This document shows, one piece after another, positions 33,788 through 64,000 of a DNA stretch of 64,000 nt. The translations under genes were made by a program, and so were the position numbers. The DNA is from Methylophaga marina. Lineage in GTDB: Bacteria; Pseudomonadota; Gammaproteobacteria; Nitrosococcales; Methylophagaceae. Each line of letters starts with the position of its first letter. Positions within the stretch are counted from its first letter, which is position 1. Below the pieces are notes generated by a model that searched no databases, was not told where the DNA came from, and worked only from the letters and a program-made list of their open reading frames with translations. The stretch covers positions 2,357,475-2,421,474 of the forward strand of contig NZ_AP027741.1 of the NCBI RefSeq assembly GCF_030296755.1, written 5' to 3'.

Positions 33788-34369
33788 TTACTTTTTTAAG
33801 TTAGAACGTCTTCTCATTGCAGTAAATCCCATTAAACCAGAAGCAAATAACCAAGCTGCAGCTGGTACTGGTACTTCAGAAACGCTAGGTGTATAGGTGA
33901 AATTGTCAGCATATACAGAATTCTTGTAGAAGCCTCCTATCGTGCCAAAAATAGCATAACTAATGTCATCAAAAGCAAGCGACAATGTGACCATTGTGCT
34001 GCTGGTACAGCAATTAACTGATGTTGTTCCCAATAAATTATTGGCGATGTCATAGACGGATAAAAAGATATTGTCGAGGTCATTACCATAGTCACCTAGG
34101 TCAACAGACACTGATTTGGCACCACCAGCAATAACAGCCTTAAAGGGATCATCACTTGAAAAAGAAGTACCACTTAAACCTCTGGAGCCAGTTGGTGTTC
34201 TATCTGTAGAAATATTTGCACTTCCCTTTGAAAAAGTCACACCTTGCGTTGTGTAGCTACTGACATTAGAAAATGATAGTGAATTAAAATTAATCGCCAC
34301 AGGAGCGGCGTGAGCGATTGCGATAAAACTGGAAAATAAAATGATCGCAGTCTTTAAGATTTTTTTCAT
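33788..34369 (-). CDS. PEP-CTERM sorting-domain protein
   Basis: A secreted protein of 193 residues from the ATG at 34369. A signal peptide (KKILKTAIILFSSFIAIAHA) leads a beta-rich middle part with no recognised domain. The C-terminal sorting signal, about residues 166-193, is VPVPAAAW, a hydrophobic stretch and the basic tail AMRRRSNLKK. Such tails are cut by an exosortase and the proteins reach the cell surface or biofilm matrix. Two adjacent cysteines (NCCTSS) may form a disulfide. No exosortase or EPS gene is in this window. Flanking genes appear unrelated. Confidence 0.82.
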   Translation of the reverse strand: MKKILKTAIILFSSFIAIAHAAPVAINFNSLSFSNVSSYTTQGVTFSKGSANISTDRTPTGSRGLSGTSFSSDDPFKAVIAGGAKSVSVDLGDYGNDLDNIFLSVYDIANNLLGTTSVNCCTSSTMVTLSLAFDDISYAIFGTIGGFYKNSVYADNFTYTPSVSEVPVPAAAWLFASGLMGFTAMRRRSNLKK

Positions 34370-34519
34370 ATTACATTGCCCTTGCATATATGCAGCCCGA
34401 CTACCTACATGAGGCTCGTGGCTTTCCGTAGCATGATTCGCATCATGGTTGGCAAGTTAGATAAAGGTTGGGGTGAAGAGAACCTCTTCGAGAATAGATT
34501 ATTTAAACGAACTGAAGCT

Positions 34520-58055: not shown

Positions 58056-58688
58056 TTATGTTTTTTCATTGGAAAATGACTGTTTTGCAATAATTTCTTT
58101 TGCTAACTCACCTACTGGCATACGTTGTTCCATCGCCTGTTTTCGCAATAATTTATAGGCTGCTTCAAGACTAATATTTTGTTTTTCACTGATAAAATGC
58201 TTGGCGTTTTCAATATGTTGACTGGCATTGAGTTTGGATTCTAGGTTACGAATTGTCTTTAACATAGAGCGAGTTTGTTTAAACTCTTGCAAACCCAGCA
58301 GTAAGTTACTGAGTACACCCAAAGGGTGAAATGGAAGACCAATAATCGCTTGCGCATTCAAACTTAATGAATATTGCAAAACCAGTGGGTTTTCATAGTC
58401 CACCACCAACACTAAAGCGGCCGGTGGGTTGCTGACATCCCAGTGAAAGTCATAATTATTCTCAATAATAGGGGTAAGCCCCAGCATCACCACCTGATAA
58501 TTAGATGAAAAGTCCTCAGGTGGTGGCCATTCCGTTTTTAATGGAAAGCCAATGCGCCGGATCTGTTGTTCGATTTTTTTACGATTCTCACCTTCTGGCA
58601 TGATCAGCAAGATTTCATGCTGGCGTAAGTTTTTAACTAAGGTGGAGAGCTCCAGAGGCTGCTGAACAGCAGTTAAGCGCTTACTCAT
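58056..58688 (-). CDS. amiR: AmiR-like ANTAR antitermination regulator
   Basis: A 210-residue protein with an N-terminal receiver-like domain (about 22-135) that lacks a clear phosphorylation pocket. A coiled coil follows (about 138-160), then a C-terminal ANTAR RNA-binding domain (about 160-200; AAYKLLRKQAMEQRMPVGELA). In Pseudomonas AmiR is held by AmiC and, when amides bind, prevents termination in the amidase leader. Here its gene overlaps that of an AmiC-like protein by four bases. The divergent urt leader has a terminator preceded by paired hairpins, its likely target. Confidence 0.9.
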   Translation of the reverse strand: MSKRLTAVQQPLELSTLVKNLRQHEILLIMPEGENRKKIEQQIRRIGFPLKTEWPPPEDFSSNYQVVMLGLTPIIENNYDFHWDVSNPPAALVLVVDYENPLVLQYSLSLNAQAIIGLPFHPLGVLSNLLLGLQEFKQTRSMLKTIRNLESKLNASQHIENAKHFISEKQNISLEAAYKLLRKQAMEQRMPVGELAKEIIAKQSFSNEKT

Positions 58689-59836
58689 AACGACTCTCTG
58701 CTGGCTGTTTCCAGAGGGCTCGTCGAATATGAGACTAAGTAGGGATCAGGTTTCAACGCCGTGTCGGAAGTCACTAATATATCGAATTGACCTTGTTGAT
58801 TGACTCGACCTATGCGTGACCATAAAAAACAATGATTATTATCAGGATCAATTTTTACCGGACCCTGTGGTGCCGAATGTCGAATATCGGCTATTTTTTC
58901 CATCACCTTATCAGCATGGAATGACTCAGCCAGCTTGACCGCTTTGATAGCCAGATGAACCTGGAAATACGCCGCTTCCCAGCACATTGTGGTTACTTCA
59001 TCCTGGCCATAGGTGGCCTTATATTCCTTGACGATTTCCTGGTTTATCTGGGTTTCAACTGACTGGAAATAAGGTGCTGCGGTGTAGTGTCCAAAACCTG
59101 CCTTAATTCCCATCGCCTGAATTTCTGTTTCGGTCGTTGTCAAGCTGGCAATAGGAATAGGTTTATCGGCATTTAATTCCAGCATGGCTTGATAAAAATA
59201 CTCAATGCTTTTGCCGACAAAGTTAGAGAAGACAAACTCGGGATGCTGTGAACTGACGTGCCTGGCAACCTCATAGACAGCTTCTTTGTTGGTTTCTAAT
59301 GGCAGAAACATTTCTGATATGACGTCACCATCTGATGTTTCGATGAGTTCACGCATGATGCGGTTAATCTCACGAGGCCAGATATAATCGGAGCCAACCA
59401 TGCAGACGCGTTTACCGACGTTTTGAAGCATGTATTGGGCAAGCTGAACACAACCTTGATTTGGTGCCGCACCGGTATAAACGACATTCGGTGCATACTC
59501 AAATCCCTCATATTGCGTTGGGTAAAAAAGTAAAACATCGTAACGCCCGATAATCGGTAGCATGGCTTTGCGGCTAGCCGAAGTGTATCCACCGAAGATG
59601 AGTTTGACGTTATCTTCAACGATTAACTTTTGTGTGAGCGGGCCATAATTTTCTGGAACAGATTGAGGATCAACACAAATAGGATGGAGTTGCTGACCAT
59701 TGATGCCACCCTGACGATTGATCCTATCAATTGCCAGCAGGGTTGACCTGAGCATGGTCTGTTCTGGATTAGCTGTGACACCTGTCTGAGAAAAAATGAC
59801 ACCAACAGGGATTGCAGCGGGATACGTATTAGACAT
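58685..59836 (-). CDS. amiC: AmiC-like amide/urea sensor, negative regulator of AmiR
   Basis: A cytoplasmic type I periplasmic-binding-protein fold without signal peptide (383 aa from the ATG at 59836, which has GAGG upstream). It is paralogous to UrtA in this same window: both contain GGYTSASRKAMLP and similar flanks. In Pseudomonas, AmiC binds short amides and releases AmiR. Here the neighbourhood suggests urea or a short amide as ligand. The stop overlaps the amiR start by four bases (ATGA), which supports a tight stoichiometric pair. Confidence 0.9.
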   Translation of the reverse strand: MSNTYPAAIPVGVIFSQTGVTANPEQTMLRSTLLAIDRINRQGGINGQQLHPICVDPQSVPENYGPLTQKLIVEDNVKLIFGGYTSASRKAMLPIIGRYDVLLFYPTQYEGFEYAPNVVYTGAAPNQGCVQLAQYMLQNVGKRVCMVGSDYIWPREINRIMRELIETSDGDVISEMFLPLETNKEAVYEVARHVSSQHPEFVFSNFVGKSIEYFYQAMLELNADKPIPIASLTTTETEIQAMGIKAGFGHYTAAPYFQSVETQINQEIVKEYKATYGQDEVTTMCWEAAYFQVHLAIKAVKLAESFHADKVMEKIADIRHSAPQGPVKIDPDNNHCFLWSRIGRVNQQGQFDILVTSDTALKPDPYLVSYSTSPLETASRESL

Positions 59837-59881
59837 TAAAAACCTCATGTAATATCAGGCATAGAGCCATAAATGTTATTC

Positions 59882-59921
59882 ATTCTGCGTTTTTGCAGAA
59901 TCAGTACCCATAATTCGGGTA
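59882..59921 (-). promoter_or_regulatory. Two hairpins in the amiC leader
   Basis: Read on the minus strand, TACCC/GGGTA with a seven-base loop is followed by ATTCTGC/GCAGAAT with the six-base loop AAAAAC. The second resembles the hairpins in the urt leader in size and A-rich loop. No T-run follows, so there is no terminator here. Possible autoregulatory site for the amiC-amiR transcript; alternative reading is operator palindromes. Confidence 0.4.
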
Positions 59922-60138
59922 GATAAACAGCAATTGATAATGAGTTTCTAAATGTCTATTTCAGTGGACCATACCGCTTTGTTGTTGTCAATTCGCTTCT
60001 GAATATTAAACAAACGATTCGGATGACACGCAAAAATGGTGCGATGTTTATGATCTTTGCACCAAAATTAAACAATCTTTTTACAAAAATAAAAGTCAAT
60101 TTTTGTAACTTGTTGTTTATTTTGTGATATTTGTCTTT

Positions 60139-60152
60139 GGCATAAATTGTGC
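60139..60152 (+). promoter_or_regulatory. Sigma-54 promoter of the urt operon
   Basis: TTTGGCATAAATTGTGC keeps the invariant GG (60139-60140) and GC (60151-60152) with exactly ten bases between, and TGGCA matches the -24 box. The -12 box is less perfect. Transcription would start near 60164. GGTGC (60038-60042) and TGCACC (60058-60063) upstream may be NtrC half-sites but are not in the usual spacing. Nitrogen limitation is the expected trigger. Confidence 0.7.
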
Positions 60153-60191
60153 GTAAACCCTAAGTGAGGATTGATAGTTATTCTGCATGAG

Positions 60192-60265
60192 ATAACTGCC
60201 CGCAAAAGCGCGTTCAGTTATATATTCATCATCCAGAATCTCCAAAAGCGGAGTGTGATTATCTG
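60192..60265 (+). promoter_or_regulatory. Dual-hairpin ANTAR antitermination site in the urt leader
   Basis: Hairpin 1 (60192-60221) has ATAACTG/CAGTTAT, a CC/TT internal loop, CGC/GCG and a six-base loop AAAAGC. Hairpin 2 (60234-60265) has CAGA/TCTG, an internal loop, CTCC/GGAG and the same loop AAAAGC. Thirty bases later comes a strong terminator. Two small stems with matching six-base loops ahead of a terminator is the layout bound by ANTAR proteins such as NasR and AmiR. The amiR gene is divergent from this leader. The exact loop consensus should be compared with known targets. Confidence 0.72.
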
Positions 60266-60294
60266 TCTCTAAATGTCATGTTATTTTTCGAGCG

Positions 60295-60328
60295 AAAGGG
60301 CTCCCTAATTTATTAGGGGGCCCTTTTT
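60295..60328 (+). terminator. Intrinsic terminator inside the urtA leader (attenuator)
   Basis: AAAGGGCTCCCTAAT pairs along its whole length with the following arm (60312-60326, one G-T pair) and runs into five T residues. It stands only 21 bases before the urtA start codon and about 130 bases after the predicted promoter start. It can only make sense as a regulated terminator, most likely overcome by AmiR. Confidence 0.9.
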
Positions 60329-60349
60329 GCGTTTTAAGGGGAAGCATTA

Positions 60350-61582
60350 ATGAAATTACTAAAAAATCTTAAGGCAACTATTGCGGTTGTTGCCTTTAGT
60401 TTACCGTTTATCGGGCAAGCGAGTGCGGCCGATGAAATTAAAGTGGGCGTACTTTTTTCACTAACGGGTGGCTTGTCTATTGTAGAAAAGTCTCTGTCTG
60501 ATGCCACCTTAATGGCAATTGATGAAATCAATGCCAATGGTGGTGTTGACGGTAAGATGATCAAACCCATCGTAGAAGATGGGGCGAGTGATCCTAAAAC
60601 ATTTAATGAAAAAACAAGCAAACTAGTGATTCGTGATCGTGTCGTTACCGTCTTTGGTGGTTACACTTCAGCTAGTCGAAAAGCGATGCTACCTGTTATC
60701 GAAAAACGTAAAAATCTATTGTTTTATCCTACTTTTTACGAAGGATATGAGTGCTCAAAAAATGTCATTTATACCGGCTCTGTTCCTAACCAGCAGTTGA
60801 ATAATTACATTCCTTATTTGGTTAATAAGTTAGGTAAGAAGAAGTTCTTCATTGTTGGCTCTAACTACTTATTTCCAAAAGAAATGGCAAAAGTGGCTAA
60901 AAAGTTAATTGAAGCTAATGGTGCTGAATGGGTGGCAGATGAATACCTAGAGCTAGGTCATTCTGAATGGGGCTCAATGGTCAAAAAAATCAAAGACAGT
61001 GGTGCTGATGTTGTGCTGTCTAATGTGGTAGGTGACTCTGTCATTTCTTTCTATCGTGAATATTTCAACCAGGGTATTTCACAAAAAGATATTCCTATTG
61101 CCTCAACTGTGACCTCTGAAATTGAGGTGGCGGCATTAGGTGGTAAATATGCTGCCGGTAGTTATACCTCATTCCCTTATTTCCAAGCTATTGATACCAA
61201 AGAAAATCACGACTTCATCAAACGTTATCGTGCTTATGTTAACGATCCGAATGCTGTCACACACGTCACTATGGTTGCAGCATATGAGAGTGTTTACGAG
61301 TGGGCTAAAGCGGTAGAAAAATCGGGTAAAACCAAACCACGAGACATCATGGAAGCGGCAAAAGGGGTATCTATAGATGGACCTATGGGCGTGATGACAG
61401 TAAGTCCTGAAAACCTTCATAACTCGATGACGCCTCGTATTGCTCAATGGCAAGAAGATGGTCAGGGCAAAATCGTCGATGAATATGATGTGCCATTACA
61501 GCCATTACCTTATTCCGCCTACGGTGAAACAGCTGACAATCTGTTCTGCACCGTGTCCGGTTTGGACAGTTCTAAATTGTAA
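60350..61582 (+). CDS. urtA: Urea ABC transporter substrate-binding protein
   Basis: A periplasmic binding protein of the FmdD/UrtA type, 410 residues. A signal peptide ends near residue 27 (IGQASA). The branched-chain-amino-acid-type fold has KVGVLFSLTGGLSIVEKSL and GGYTSASRKAMLPV, also seen in the neighbouring AmiC-like sensor. It binds urea or a short amide for UrtBC. The start has an AAGGGG ribosome site. Expression is predicted to need a sigma-54 promoter and antitermination in the leader. A strong hairpin separates it from urtB. Confidence 0.93.
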   Translation: MKLLKNLKATIAVVAFSLPFIGQASAADEIKVGVLFSLTGGLSIVEKSLSDATLMAIDEINANGGVDGKMIKPIVEDGASDPKTFNEKTSKLVIRDRVVTVFGGYTSASRKAMLPVIEKRKNLLFYPTFYEGYECSKNVIYTGSVPNQQLNNYIPYLVNKLGKKKFFIVGSNYLFPKEMAKVAKKLIEANGAEWVADEYLELGHSEWGSMVKKIKDSGADVVLSNVVGDSVISFYREYFNQGISQKDIPIASTVTSEIEVAALGGKYAAGSYTSFPYFQAIDTKENHDFIKRYRAYVNDPNAVTHVTMVAAYESVYEWAKAVEKSGKTKPRDIMEAAKGVSIDGPMGVMTVSPENLHNSMTPRIAQWQEDGQGKIVDEYDVPLQPLPYSAYGETADNLFCTVSGLDSSKL

Positions 61583-61645: not shown

Positions 61646-62539
61646 ATGTTAGATACTGTATTCATTGGGCTAAGTATTGGCTCTATCTTGCTATTGGTCG
61701 CATTGGGTTTATCCATAGTCTATGGCTCGATGGGGGTCATTAATATGGCTCATGGTGAATTAGTCATGATGGGTGCCTATACCACCGTACTGGCTCAAAC
61801 CTATTTAGGTTTTAATCTGTTTGCAGCTATTCCTTTAGCTTTTCTCGTCTGTGCTGGTTTGGGGTTACTCATTGAAAAGCTGGTGATTCGTCGCTTATAT
61901 AGCCGGCTGTTTGATACTTTGCTGGCGACATGGGGGGTGGCTATTTTACTACAGCAAGCTATTCGTCTTGAATTTGGTTTGTCTTTTTTCGGCATCCATA
62001 TCGATGGCCTTGGACCAGGGCTACAGTCTGTGACTCTGCCCGAGATCATGACAGAGTCATTTACTGTAGGTGAGTTTGTTATTCAGCCTTATAGAACATT
62101 TATCATTTTAGTGTCTGCACTGTTGGCATTGTTGACGTGGTTTGTGATGTATCGCACCCGAATAGGTCAACAAGTAAGAGCAATCATGCGTAATCCTGAT
62201 ATGGCAGCGGCCTGTGGCATCGATGTCAAAAAAGTGAATGCCTTAACCTTTGCTTATGGTGCCGGATTGGCTGGTGTCGCTGGTGTCATGATGTCTGGGT
62301 TTAAAACCGTTATGCCTGATATGGGCAGCTCACTGGTTGTCGATGGCTTTTTAGTGGTTGTTGTTGGCGGTGTTGGCAGCTTAGTGGGGTCGATTGTCGC
62401 CTCTGGCATTCTTGGTCAGTTAAACGGCGTGGTTGCTTTCTTTAGTAACGATATTATTGCTAGGGCAGTTGTTTTTGCGGCTGTTATCGCCATCATTATC
62501 TGGCGTCCCCGTGGCTTATTTAACTACAAGGGGCGTTAA
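61646..62539 (+). CDS. urtB: Urea ABC transporter permease UrtB
   Basis: A branched-chain-amino-acid-type ABC permease (LivH family) of 297 residues with about eight membrane segments. Family features include the opening GLSIGSILLLVALGLSIVYG and the INMAHGELVMMGAYTT segment. The EAA-like region is around RNPDMAAACGIDVKKVNAL, followed by GGVGSLVGSIVASGILGQ. It lacks the long N-terminal extension of some UrtB proteins. GAGGAGA precedes the ATG. The stop overlaps urtC by one base. Confidence 0.92.
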   Translation: MLDTVFIGLSIGSILLLVALGLSIVYGSMGVINMAHGELVMMGAYTTVLAQTYLGFNLFAAIPLAFLVCAGLGLLIEKLVIRRLYSRLFDTLLATWGVAILLQQAIRLEFGLSFFGIHIDGLGPGLQSVTLPEIMTESFTVGEFVIQPYRTFIILVSALLALLTWFVMYRTRIGQQVRAIMRNPDMAAACGIDVKKVNALTFAYGAGLAGVAGVMMSGFKTVMPDMGSSLVVDGFLVVVVGGVGSLVGSIVASGILGQLNGVVAFFSNDIIARAVVFAAVIAIIIWRPRGLFNYKGR

Positions 62540-63654
62540 TGATGAAATTGACATATTCACACCTGAAAATAATGGTTTACGCCATATTTATCGCGATCAT
62601 CCTGTCTCTGCCTTTATTTTTAGATGAGTTCTGGCTAAACCGCACAGCAAAATATTTAATTTACGGCATGTTAGGTGTCGCTATTTCATTGAGTTGGGGC
62701 TATGCCGGCATTTTGAATTTAGGGCAGGGCCTGTTCTTTGGCGCTGGGGCATACATGTTAGGCATGAGTCTGAAGTTAGCCAGTCCCACCAGTATGGAAC
62801 AAGGTGGGCAGACACCAATTCCTGACTTTATGATGTGGAATGCGGAGCCTGATGCGGTGATTGATCTCTGCTGCATCAATGATGTCTCATTCTTATGGAT
62901 GCCATTTCAATCACAAAGCTTTGGCATCTTTATGGCTATCGCCTTACCTGTCCTTGTTGCCTGGCTGATAGGCACGATCATTTTCCGTAAAGGCATTGCG
63001 GGTGTTTTCATTTCGATTATTACATTAGCCATGGTGTTATTGGCTCGCCTGTTAGTCGTTGATGCACAGTCTTTTACCGGCGGTTTTAACGGCTTAACGG
63101 ATCTGGCCTGGTTTAAGATAAATGGTTATGAGTTTGATCCCTATACGGTCAGTACTTATTACCTGGTTGCCATCTCACTAGTGATTGTCTTGCTTATCAC
63201 TCGAGTATTAATCAATAGTCGGGCAGGCTTGATATTACAAGCTATTCGCGACGATCAGAATCGAGCTAAATACCTGGGTTTTGATGCTGCATCGTATCAG
63301 ACCTTTTTCTTTTGCGTGTCAGCGGCTATCTCTGGATTTGCAGGGATGTTGTATGTCATTACCGCAGAGTTTGCATCACCTACATTTATGGATTTGTCCT
63401 TCAGTATCGCCATTGTGATCTGGGCAGCAGTGGGTGGACGTGCTTCTATCTTAGGTGCCTGTATAGGTGCCATTTCTATCTCGATGTTAGGGGCCTCGGT
63501 GAGTGAAAGCGAGCTGTTTGTTGAATCGTGGCAAGCCATTCTGGGGTTATTTTTTGTTTTGGTGGTGTTGTATATGCCAAAAGGCTTGGCCGGTATTGCT
63601 CATGGGATTTGTAGAAAACTAACTGTAAACCGGGGGAAGGCTGATGAAAGCTAA
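62539..63654 (+). CDS. urtC: Urea ABC transporter permease UrtC
   Basis: The second membrane subunit (LivM family), 371 residues and about nine helices. Characteristic parts are SWGYAGILNLGQGLFFGAGA near the N-terminus and a UrtC-type insertion between helices (about 75-120, with DLCCIND). AIRDDQNRAKYLGFDAASYQ is the ATPase-contact region. It starts at the last base of urtB and overlaps urtD by eleven bases, so the permease and ATPase genes are translationally coupled. Confidence 0.92.
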   Translation: MMKLTYSHLKIMVYAIFIAIILSLPLFLDEFWLNRTAKYLIYGMLGVAISLSWGYAGILNLGQGLFFGAGAYMLGMSLKLASPTSMEQGGQTPIPDFMMWNAEPDAVIDLCCINDVSFLWMPFQSQSFGIFMAIALPVLVAWLIGTIIFRKGIAGVFISIITLAMVLLARLLVVDAQSFTGGFNGLTDLAWFKINGYEFDPYTVSTYYLVAISLVIVLLITRVLINSRAGLILQAIRDDQNRAKYLGFDAASYQTFFFCVSAAISGFAGMLYVITAEFASPTFMDLSFSIAIVIWAAVGGRASILGACIGAISISMLGASVSESELFVESWQAILGLFFVLVVLYMPKGLAGIAHGICRKLTVNRGKADES

Positions 63655-64000
63655 AAATCGTGATCTTTATATCGATGGCTTAGGAGTTAACTTCAGTGGC
63701 TTCCAGGCAGTAAATAATTTCAGCATGGTCGTAAAACACGGTGAAATGCGTGTGCTTTTAGGCGCTAATGGTGCGGGTAAAACGACATTGATGGATATGA
63801 TATGCGGTAAAACCCAGTCAACGGCGGGCAGAATTTTTCTTGGTGATAAGGAGATCACCAATAAACCACCACATTTAATTGCTCGCTTGGGGATAGGGCG
63901 TAAATTTCAGATCCCCAGCGTTTTTAAAGAGCTTTCTGTCTTGCAGAATCTGTCAGTGGCAGCAATGCAGGAAAGTACAGTACTTGCCAATTTAGGCTCA
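63644..64000 (+). CDS. urtD: Urea ABC transporter ATP-binding protein UrtD (partial, cut by window end)
   Basis: The first 119 codons of an ABC ATPase of the LivG/UrtD type; the gene runs off the window. The ATG at 63644 follows GGGGGAAGG and overlaps urtC. Walker A is GANGAGKTT (about residues 45-53) and the Q-loop is GRKFQIPSVFKELSVLQNL, typical of UrtD. It should be followed by urtE and possibly urease genes outside the window. Confidence 0.92.
   Translation, partial: MKAKNRDLYIDGLGVNFSGFQAVNNFSMVVKHGEMRVLLGANGAGKTTLMDMICGKTQSTAGRIFLGDKEITNKPPHLIARLGIGRKFQIPSVFKELSVLQNLSVAAMQESTVLANLGS

Follow-up and report, generated by a model that had tools for sequence, protein, structure and literature searches.

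In the parts available of the papers on the eut and nas attenuators, the known ANTAR leaders contain a second hairpin (P2) that overlaps the terminator (PMC3369931, PMC3369936). SELEX with NasR and work on EutV, as given in the accessible text, converge on a rule for the hexanucleotide loops, with A at position 1 and G at position 4 (A1/G4) and a C-G closing pair (PMC7496416, PMC8934654). According to the excerpted EutV study, the RNA is contacted by Tyr164, Arg168, Met172, Asn173, Arg175, and Arg177, a single hexaloop constitutes the minimal site, and a linker longer by 20 nt abolished antitermination (PMC8934654). Published searches for ANTAR targets rely on A1/G4 and on two closely spaced hairpins, and predicted ANTAR leaders ahead of urea transporters are already published, such transporters being among the genes listed behind them in the available sections of Ramesh 2012 (PMC3369931). 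Moreover, a 2026 paper, available in part, describes a plasmid amiE-amiC-amiR set with an ABC transporter. Among the matches listed on AmiR/ANTAR regulation of urea transport, available as partial texts, no publication on AmiR control of a urt-urease operon, or on a loop with G at position 5 (G5), was found. The urtA leader described here seems to represent a switch type that is already known, with hexaloop marks that appear to depart from the textbook rule, and it probably functions as an AmiC/AmiR-controlled transcription attenuator of a urt-urease operon.

The window, that is, the whole stretch of 64,000 nucleotides analyzed, lies in a genome of the genus Methylophaga assembled as a single contig of 3.1 Mb. 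On its minus strand, amiR (58056..58688) encodes an antiterminator protein with an AmiR_N pseudo-receiver and a C-terminal ANTAR domain, both above cut-off (PF21332, E 8.9e-21; PF03861, E 3.2e-12), which matches P. aeruginosa AmiR (1qo0, E 1.7e-16) and EutV (6wsh, E 2.1e-6) in the PDB. The adjoining amiC (58685..59848, minus strand) overlaps the start of amiR by four bases and encodes a ligand sensor of periplasmic-binding fold (PF13433, Peripla_BP_5, E 9.4e-128), with no signal peptide visible by eye and with AmiC (1pea, E 4.6e-81) as its best PDB match. Both genes are divergent from the urt operon, and the AmiC-like sensor and ANTAR protein named in the first-pass annotation are indeed there. 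On the plus strand, urtA (60350..61582) encodes a substrate-binding protein (PF13433, E 2.4e-136) whose signal peptide was read by eye, and is followed by urtB, urtC, and the beginning of urtD (61646..64000; open reading frames and domain matches). Past the window end stand urtE, ureE, ureF, a fused ureAB, ureC, ureG, and ureD, the urease genes being assigned by eye. In the window's assembly, ureF is split over two frames (L033 14019-14737, G000:C1; 1.5-2.3 kb beyond the window end), whereas G012, G014, G020, and a same-species MAG have it in a single frame; the split may be either a genuine break or an assembly error. The same genome contains a second urt-urease cluster with formamidase-like genes (L171, G000:C1:184000-196000; by eye), beside which no AmiC or AmiR was noticed, and a second ANTAR protein (L037 5314-5937) adjoining a nitrate-sensor-like gene (by eye). 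Elsewhere in the window, a c-di-GMP-I riboswitch lies on the minus strand (34388-34463; 40.5 bits, gathering threshold 35), and the open reading frame directly behind it (33788-34387) has a C-terminus that resembles a sorting anchor (by eye).

The urtA leader holds two hairpins with the identical loop AAAAGC, as the first-pass annotation had claimed. Both hexaloops are closed by C-G, in HP1 (60192..60221, plus strand; ATAACTG..CGC[AAAAGC]GCG..CAGTTAT; pair probability 0.92) and in HP2 (60240..60253, plus strand; CTCC[AAAAGC]GGAG; 0.88-0.90). The 15-pair intrinsic terminator of the same annotation was also located (60294..60328, plus strand), with its stem at 60294-60327, a loop of 4, a short U-tract (TTTTTGCGTTTT), and 21 bases (60329-60349) between it and the urtA ATG at 60350; the U-tract is too short for a detector requiring 6 T in 8, and the terminator is missed by that rule. 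The leader folds with a z of -3.79, and none of 200 shuffles folds as well. When two hexaloop hairpins with stems of at least 3 pairs and the same loop were sought in dinucleotide shuffles of 60168-60289, C-G-closed pairs appeared in 0/20000, against 2/20000 for the G020 leader, whereas 111/20000 and 99/20000, respectively, qualified when any closing pair was allowed.

Neither HP1 nor HP2 overlaps the terminator. Its 5' arm is overlapped by a third hexaloop hairpin (60290..60303, plus strand; GAGC[GAAAGG]GCTC), a candidate P2-like antiterminator which, together with the promoter and the downstream urease genes discussed here, goes beyond the first-pass annotation. This hairpin has a pair probability of 0.97-0.99 when the transcript ends behind it (0.89-0.90 in G020) and of 0.0 in the full leader, in whose computed fold HP1 and HP2 persist and the third hairpin is gone; in these computed folds, the third hairpin and the terminator are mutually exclusive, which is how the eut and nas attenuators are described to work in the available text (PMC3369931, PMC3369936). 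Thus, of the paired-hairpin ANTAR switch proposed earlier, the hexaloop hairpins before a terminator hold, but HP1 and HP2 would not be the whole switch, the likely antiterminator being the overlapping third hairpin. A mechanism in which HP1 and HP2, or just HP1, are the sole AmiR sites, termination being blocked through RNA sequestering or polymerase contact and the third hairpin being a chance by-product, is unlikely. Such a mechanism would agree with the identical, conserved HP1 and HP2 loops beside a third loop that varies (GAAAGG in the window, ATAAGG in G020), with the gap from HP2 to the third hairpin (36 nt in the window, 64 nt in G020), with the single-hexaloop EutV site reported in the available text (PMC8934654), and with similar shapes at other terminator-like sites (30/105 with stems of at least 3; 13/105 with stems of at least 4, at least 6 of these 13 being AmiR leaders). 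However, the 5' arm GAGC (60290-60293) lies outside the terminator stem and yet is kept in G020, an overlapping P2 is used by known ANTAR leaders as far as the accessible parts describe them (PMC3369931, PMC3369936), and a terminator-overlapping hairpin occurs in 22 distinct loci among the leaders compared below.

Within the genus, AmiR orthologues were found in G012, G014, and G020, plus the same-species G784; the gene matches M. aminisulfidivorans, M. sulfidovorans, M. muralis, and one Methylophaga MAG at 76-99%, and the G020 protein is 74-76% identical. Over the final 190 bases ahead of urtA, the window and a same-species MAG (L069) are identical, and G012 and G014 are nearly so, which leaves only two independent Methylophaga leader sequences. 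The G020 leader is strongly diverged, yet it keeps CGC[AAAAGC]GCG, and its HP2 reads GGGC[AAAAGC]GCTC against CTCC[AAAAGC]GGAG in the window, with the loop unchanged and the stem and spacing altered; a C-G pair closes all three hairpins in both. With stems of at least 3, the hairpin pair stands at urtA in 5/5 AmiR-carrying Methylophaga genomes and in 0/19 others (24 genomes in all; 7 of the 19 AmiR-less ones are under 90% complete, at 55-89%), and the backward control of the loop-pair pattern matched 1/24 genomes. Other CAAAAGCG pairs (in G011, G019, G021, G016, and G017, and an extra one in G012) were set aside, having flanking stems of just 1-2 pairs. In ten of the 19 genomes lacking AmiR, UrtA is a different protein (38-43% identical), and in the window's genome a paralogue of that kind sits in the formamidase-urt-urease cluster (by eye). 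No AmiE homologue was found in the 24 Methylophaga genomes by a search run without a positive control.

Upstream of the hairpins, a sequence at 60137..60153 (plus strand; GG-N10-GC at 60139-60152) is presumably a sigma-54-type promoter; G020 has CTGGCATACCCTATGCA in the same position, and the window's genome encodes a sigma-54 factor. The inverted repeat GGTGC-N16-GCACC (60038..60063), kept in G020, has half sites that we take to be NtrC-like. In addition, a repeat recognized by its sequence conservation, TYTCTAAATGTC, has one copy at 59945..59956 (plus strand) and a second at 60266-60277, within the conserved 13-mer GTCTCTAAATGTC (60265..60277, plus strand); all five AmiR-carrying Methylophaga genomes have two same-strand copies, 321-352 bases apart, and away from this locus the repeat is about as frequent as its backward control. 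An amiCR mRNA begun upstream of the first copy would include 10 bases complementary to the urtA leader. A nearer hexaloop that would involve the 13-mer, AAATG[TCATGT]TATTT, can form in the window and was rejected, 1/5 of its pairs being broken in G020. Ahead of amiC, on the minus strand, ATTCTGC[AAAAAC]GCAGAAT (59882-59901) forms a 7-pair hexaloop hairpin, a possible autoregulation site, which is largely kept in G012 and G014 and absent from G020. At the gathering threshold, Rfam 15 has no family in the urtA leader, nor in five loci with AmiR-linked leaders, and at a relaxed E-value the nine sub-threshold matches for the leader include none that is ANTAR-like. The unexplained TYTCTAAATGTC, which is as conserved as the hairpins and has a copy next to amiC besides that in the leader, and the lack of a thresholded Rfam family in the leader would suit a terminator controlled otherwise, through translation of a short leader peptide, a ligand that binds the RNA, or a small RNA, with the AAAAGC hairpins as structural or RNA-stability elements. 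This is very improbable, given that the stemmed pair in the genus is found only with AmiR and that a near-identical loop occurs in amiE leaders before amiC-amiR.

The genome-wide scan for AmiR relatives returned just four Methylophaga loci, because its automatic patterns were too specific, and a wider survey was made by family. AmiR_N scored above cut-off in 27/398 genomes of the phylum and 6/369 of the class. Matches above cut-off in G209 and G108 (open reading frames of 727 and 534 aa) were left out of the class survey; of 33 places above cut-off in the phylum, 30 were taken, the window's own place and those in G691 and G420 (661 and 672 aa) being left aside, and G694, below cut-off, was also taken in. 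Among the 49 loci taken for AmiR matches, a set that contains near-duplicates, 38 have a BLAST-recognized AmiR, 30 both AmiC-like and UrtA-like proteins, and 29 all three; other genomes, too, have AmiR next to a urt-type transporter.

Near-identical loops stand in leaders of amidase genes. Across 120 genomes of one gammaproteobacterial family, eight amiE genes (L183-L190) were found, all eight followed by amiC and amiR; their P1 loops are AACAGC in seven and AACAGA in one, and the loops overlapping the terminator are AAAAAA or AAGAAA. The G083 amiE leader (L063) has AACAGC and an overlapping AATAAA, and that of G746 has two AACAGC hairpins and then an overlapping third, a layout as in Methylophaga. 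AAAAGC and AACAGC are equal at 5/6 positions. Three hexaloops in a row also occur in Rhizobium-type AmiR leaders (L144, L145, L146, L148); these precede a nitrilase-urt operon, and some of their loops are without G4. In those other AmiR leaders that yielded a first hairpin, the distance from it to the overlapping one is 6-13 nt; by rule, none was found in L073 and L081, and the Klebsiella leader (L074) showed clearly just the overlapping loop, AATAGA. A second family (f108) yielded 20 amiE loci, with an overlapping hairpin in G584 only, 18 being without a terminator by rule and one without an AmiE start. From the AmiE matches on plasmids, two stretches were taken and then set aside, one without annotation and the other with no amiC or amiR annotated. 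Among amiE or urt leaders that the tool labels as gammaproteobacterial, G584 (AAAGCT), G765 (AGTGCT), and G642 (L149, AGGGCT) keep G4; therefore, G5 marks some lineages and not the class. Overall, P1 loops of other AmiR leaders are A1/G4 in 12/23 and A1/G5 in 5/23, and P2 loops have G4 in 13/25, A4 in 10/25, and A1/G4 in 3/25, tallies that contain register errors (L183, L186) and surplus rows (L079, L141, L146) and do not include the window and G020, whose U-tracts escape the terminator detector. The stems of eight hairpins, hand-picked as distinct examples, covary (score 0.776 against a shuffled mean of 0.211, reached by 0/500; slid versions at most 0.205), and on a weaker measure, the number of pairs altered in both arms, 42/500 shuffles did as well. 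Tentatively, and with somewhat less than even confidence, a gammaproteobacterial AmiR branch may read AA(A/C)AGC, with A4-G5 and not G4, and may chain three hexaloop hairpins; in Methylophaga, it would have been recruited for a urea uptake and urease operon, with sensor and binding protein sharing an amide-type pocket.

Antitermination by a variant of the AmiR-type switch is the most likely role of the leader. Transcription would start near 60164 from the sigma-54 promoter, probably driven by NtrC under nitrogen shortage. Without AmiR, HP1 and HP2 would form, followed by the terminator, and the polymerase would halt ahead of urtA. Once urea or a short amide occupies AmiC as its small ligand, AmiR would be freed, which could read the HP1 and HP2 hexaloops and then hold the third hairpin; since the 3' arm of this hairpin is the 5' arm of the terminator, the latter could not close, and transcription would continue through urtABCDE into the urease genes, presumably as a single urt-ure transcript. 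Urea breakdown would then be controlled too, since the urease genes lie behind urtABCDE. The proposal builds on observed anatomy, on the exclusive fold of third hairpin and terminator, on conservation, and on co-occurrence with AmiR. The same-loop pair absent from the 20000 shuffles, the loops kept by G020 on an altered HP2 stem, the 5/5 versus 0/19 distribution, the AACAGC/AACAGA amiE leaders with amiC-amiR in 8/8, the amiE leader with two AACAGC hairpins before an overlapping third, the stem covariation, and the hexaloop pairs of Aminobacter and Ancylobacter, in which the second member overlaps the terminator, count in its favor. On the other hand, the missing G4 in all three loops, the 36-nt gap, the short U-tract, residues E187 and P191 of AmiR, the existence of only two independent Methylophaga sequences, and the frequency of third-hairpin-like shapes at terminators (30/105 and 13/105, as above) count against it.

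As regards the ligand, the available part of PMC10392092 reports Trp120, Ser122, Tyr141, Gln144, Glu146, Tyr190, Asn246, and Ser274 as strictly conserved urea contacts. In an alignment that uses 7s6e in place of the P. marinus protein for numbering, the urtA product is changed at 4/8 of these contacts as published there (W120Y, Q144F, N246V, and S274V, residue 246 being read from the motif LSNVVGDS versus INTLNGDQ), and AmiC has Y, V, and T at three of these four sites and keeps Q144; P. aeruginosa AmiC has the same three changes plus P at Q144. The UrtA of the second cluster (L171) keeps W120 and has F at Q144. By sequence, the urease genes would argue for urea, and the pockets would suit amides or a wider set of ligands. 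It is conceivable, though with clearly less than even confidence, that the switch depends on AmiR and that a short amide, or a mix, is what the transporter imports and AmiC detects, a reading compatible with the attenuator proposed above in which the ligand alone is disputed. The Y, F, V, and V of UrtA and the P. aeruginosa-like Y, V, and T of AmiC agree with it, whereas the urease genes behind urtE, the lack of AmiE matches among the 24 genomes, and the Q144 kept by AmiC point the other way. The earlier suggestion that AmiR switches on urea uptake instead of an amidase is thus borne out as regards an attenuated urt operon beside AmiC/AmiR, hairpins that track AmiR, and no AmiE found, but it has to be widened to the urease genes downstream and qualified by the altered urea pockets; as a whole, the first-pass interpretation is partly supported.

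With respect to the A1/G4 class, the leader has tandem short hexaloop hairpins ahead of an intrinsic terminator, and A is at loop position 1 in HP1 and HP2, the third hairpin having G in the window and A in G020. The fit to conserved ANTAR hexaloops assumed earlier fails at position 4: AAAAGC, AAAAGC, and GAAAGG all have A there and G at 5, outside the NasR and EutV rule, and G4 is likewise absent from the amiE leaders L183-L190 and L063. The terminator 5' arm is overlapped by the third hairpin and not by HP2, and the 36 nt between these two (64 in G020) contrast with 6-13 elsewhere. In the alignment of AmiR with the EutV contacts given in the available text (PMC8934654), Tyr164, Arg168, Met172, and Arg175 are kept as Y178, R182, M186, and R189, and Asn173 and Arg177 are replaced by E187 and P191. 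Given the absent G4 and the long gap, the leader is not assigned to the A1/G4 dual-hexaloop class; it seems to work like that class and to group by loop with the AACAGC-type amiE leaders. Should G5 loops and additional hairpins be in use in some AmiR leaders, searches based on A1/G4 and two closely spaced hairpins would miss these leaders; matched AmiR/loop pairs would offer a direct test of loop choice by ANTAR domains, and an amide-sensor pair would become a regulator of urea use in methylotrophs.

Compared with the P. aeruginosa AmiC-AmiR/amiE system, the Methylophaga locus shares both protein families (best PDB matches 1pea and 1qo0) and, as proposed, leader antitermination with small hairpins ahead of a terminator, but its target would be a divergent urt-urease operon and not an amidase operon, and its loops have G5, whereas amiE is reported as A1/G4 in the accessible published descriptions (PMC3369931, PMC3369936). 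K. oxytoca nasF/NasR would be alike as a nitrogen operon with Ntr control and ANTAR antitermination, according to the available text (PMC5424462), and unlike in its one-component nitrate sensor and A1/G4 loops. The ANTAR regulons of Ramesh 2012 include urea transporters, but their seed, in the sections available, has A1 and G4 in both loops (PMC3369931). In the alphaproteobacterial plasmid amiCR-urtABCDE clusters (Ancylobacter, Aminobacter, Shinella, and Agrobacterium), amiC-amiR also stands beside urt, UrtA is 53-67% identical, and a hairpin overlaps a terminator, with urease genes behind urtABCDE in those of Ancylobacter and Aminobacter; however, amiCR is upstream of urtA and co-directional there, divergent in Methylophaga, and the loops found keep G4 (Ancylobacter AGTGCT/TAGGTA, Aminobacter AATGTG/TATGTA), the hairpins GAC[AGTGCT]GTC and GAC[AATGTG]GTC, respectively, lying ten bases before the terminator-overlapping hairpin and near the A1/G4 canon. 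The amiE leaders L183-L190 and L063 resemble the Methylophaga leader in AACAGC versus AAAAGC, in the C-G closing pair, and in the overlapping third hairpin with an A-rich loop, whereas they control amiE and their nearest hairpin stands about 7-11 nt before the antiterminator, compared with 36 in the window.
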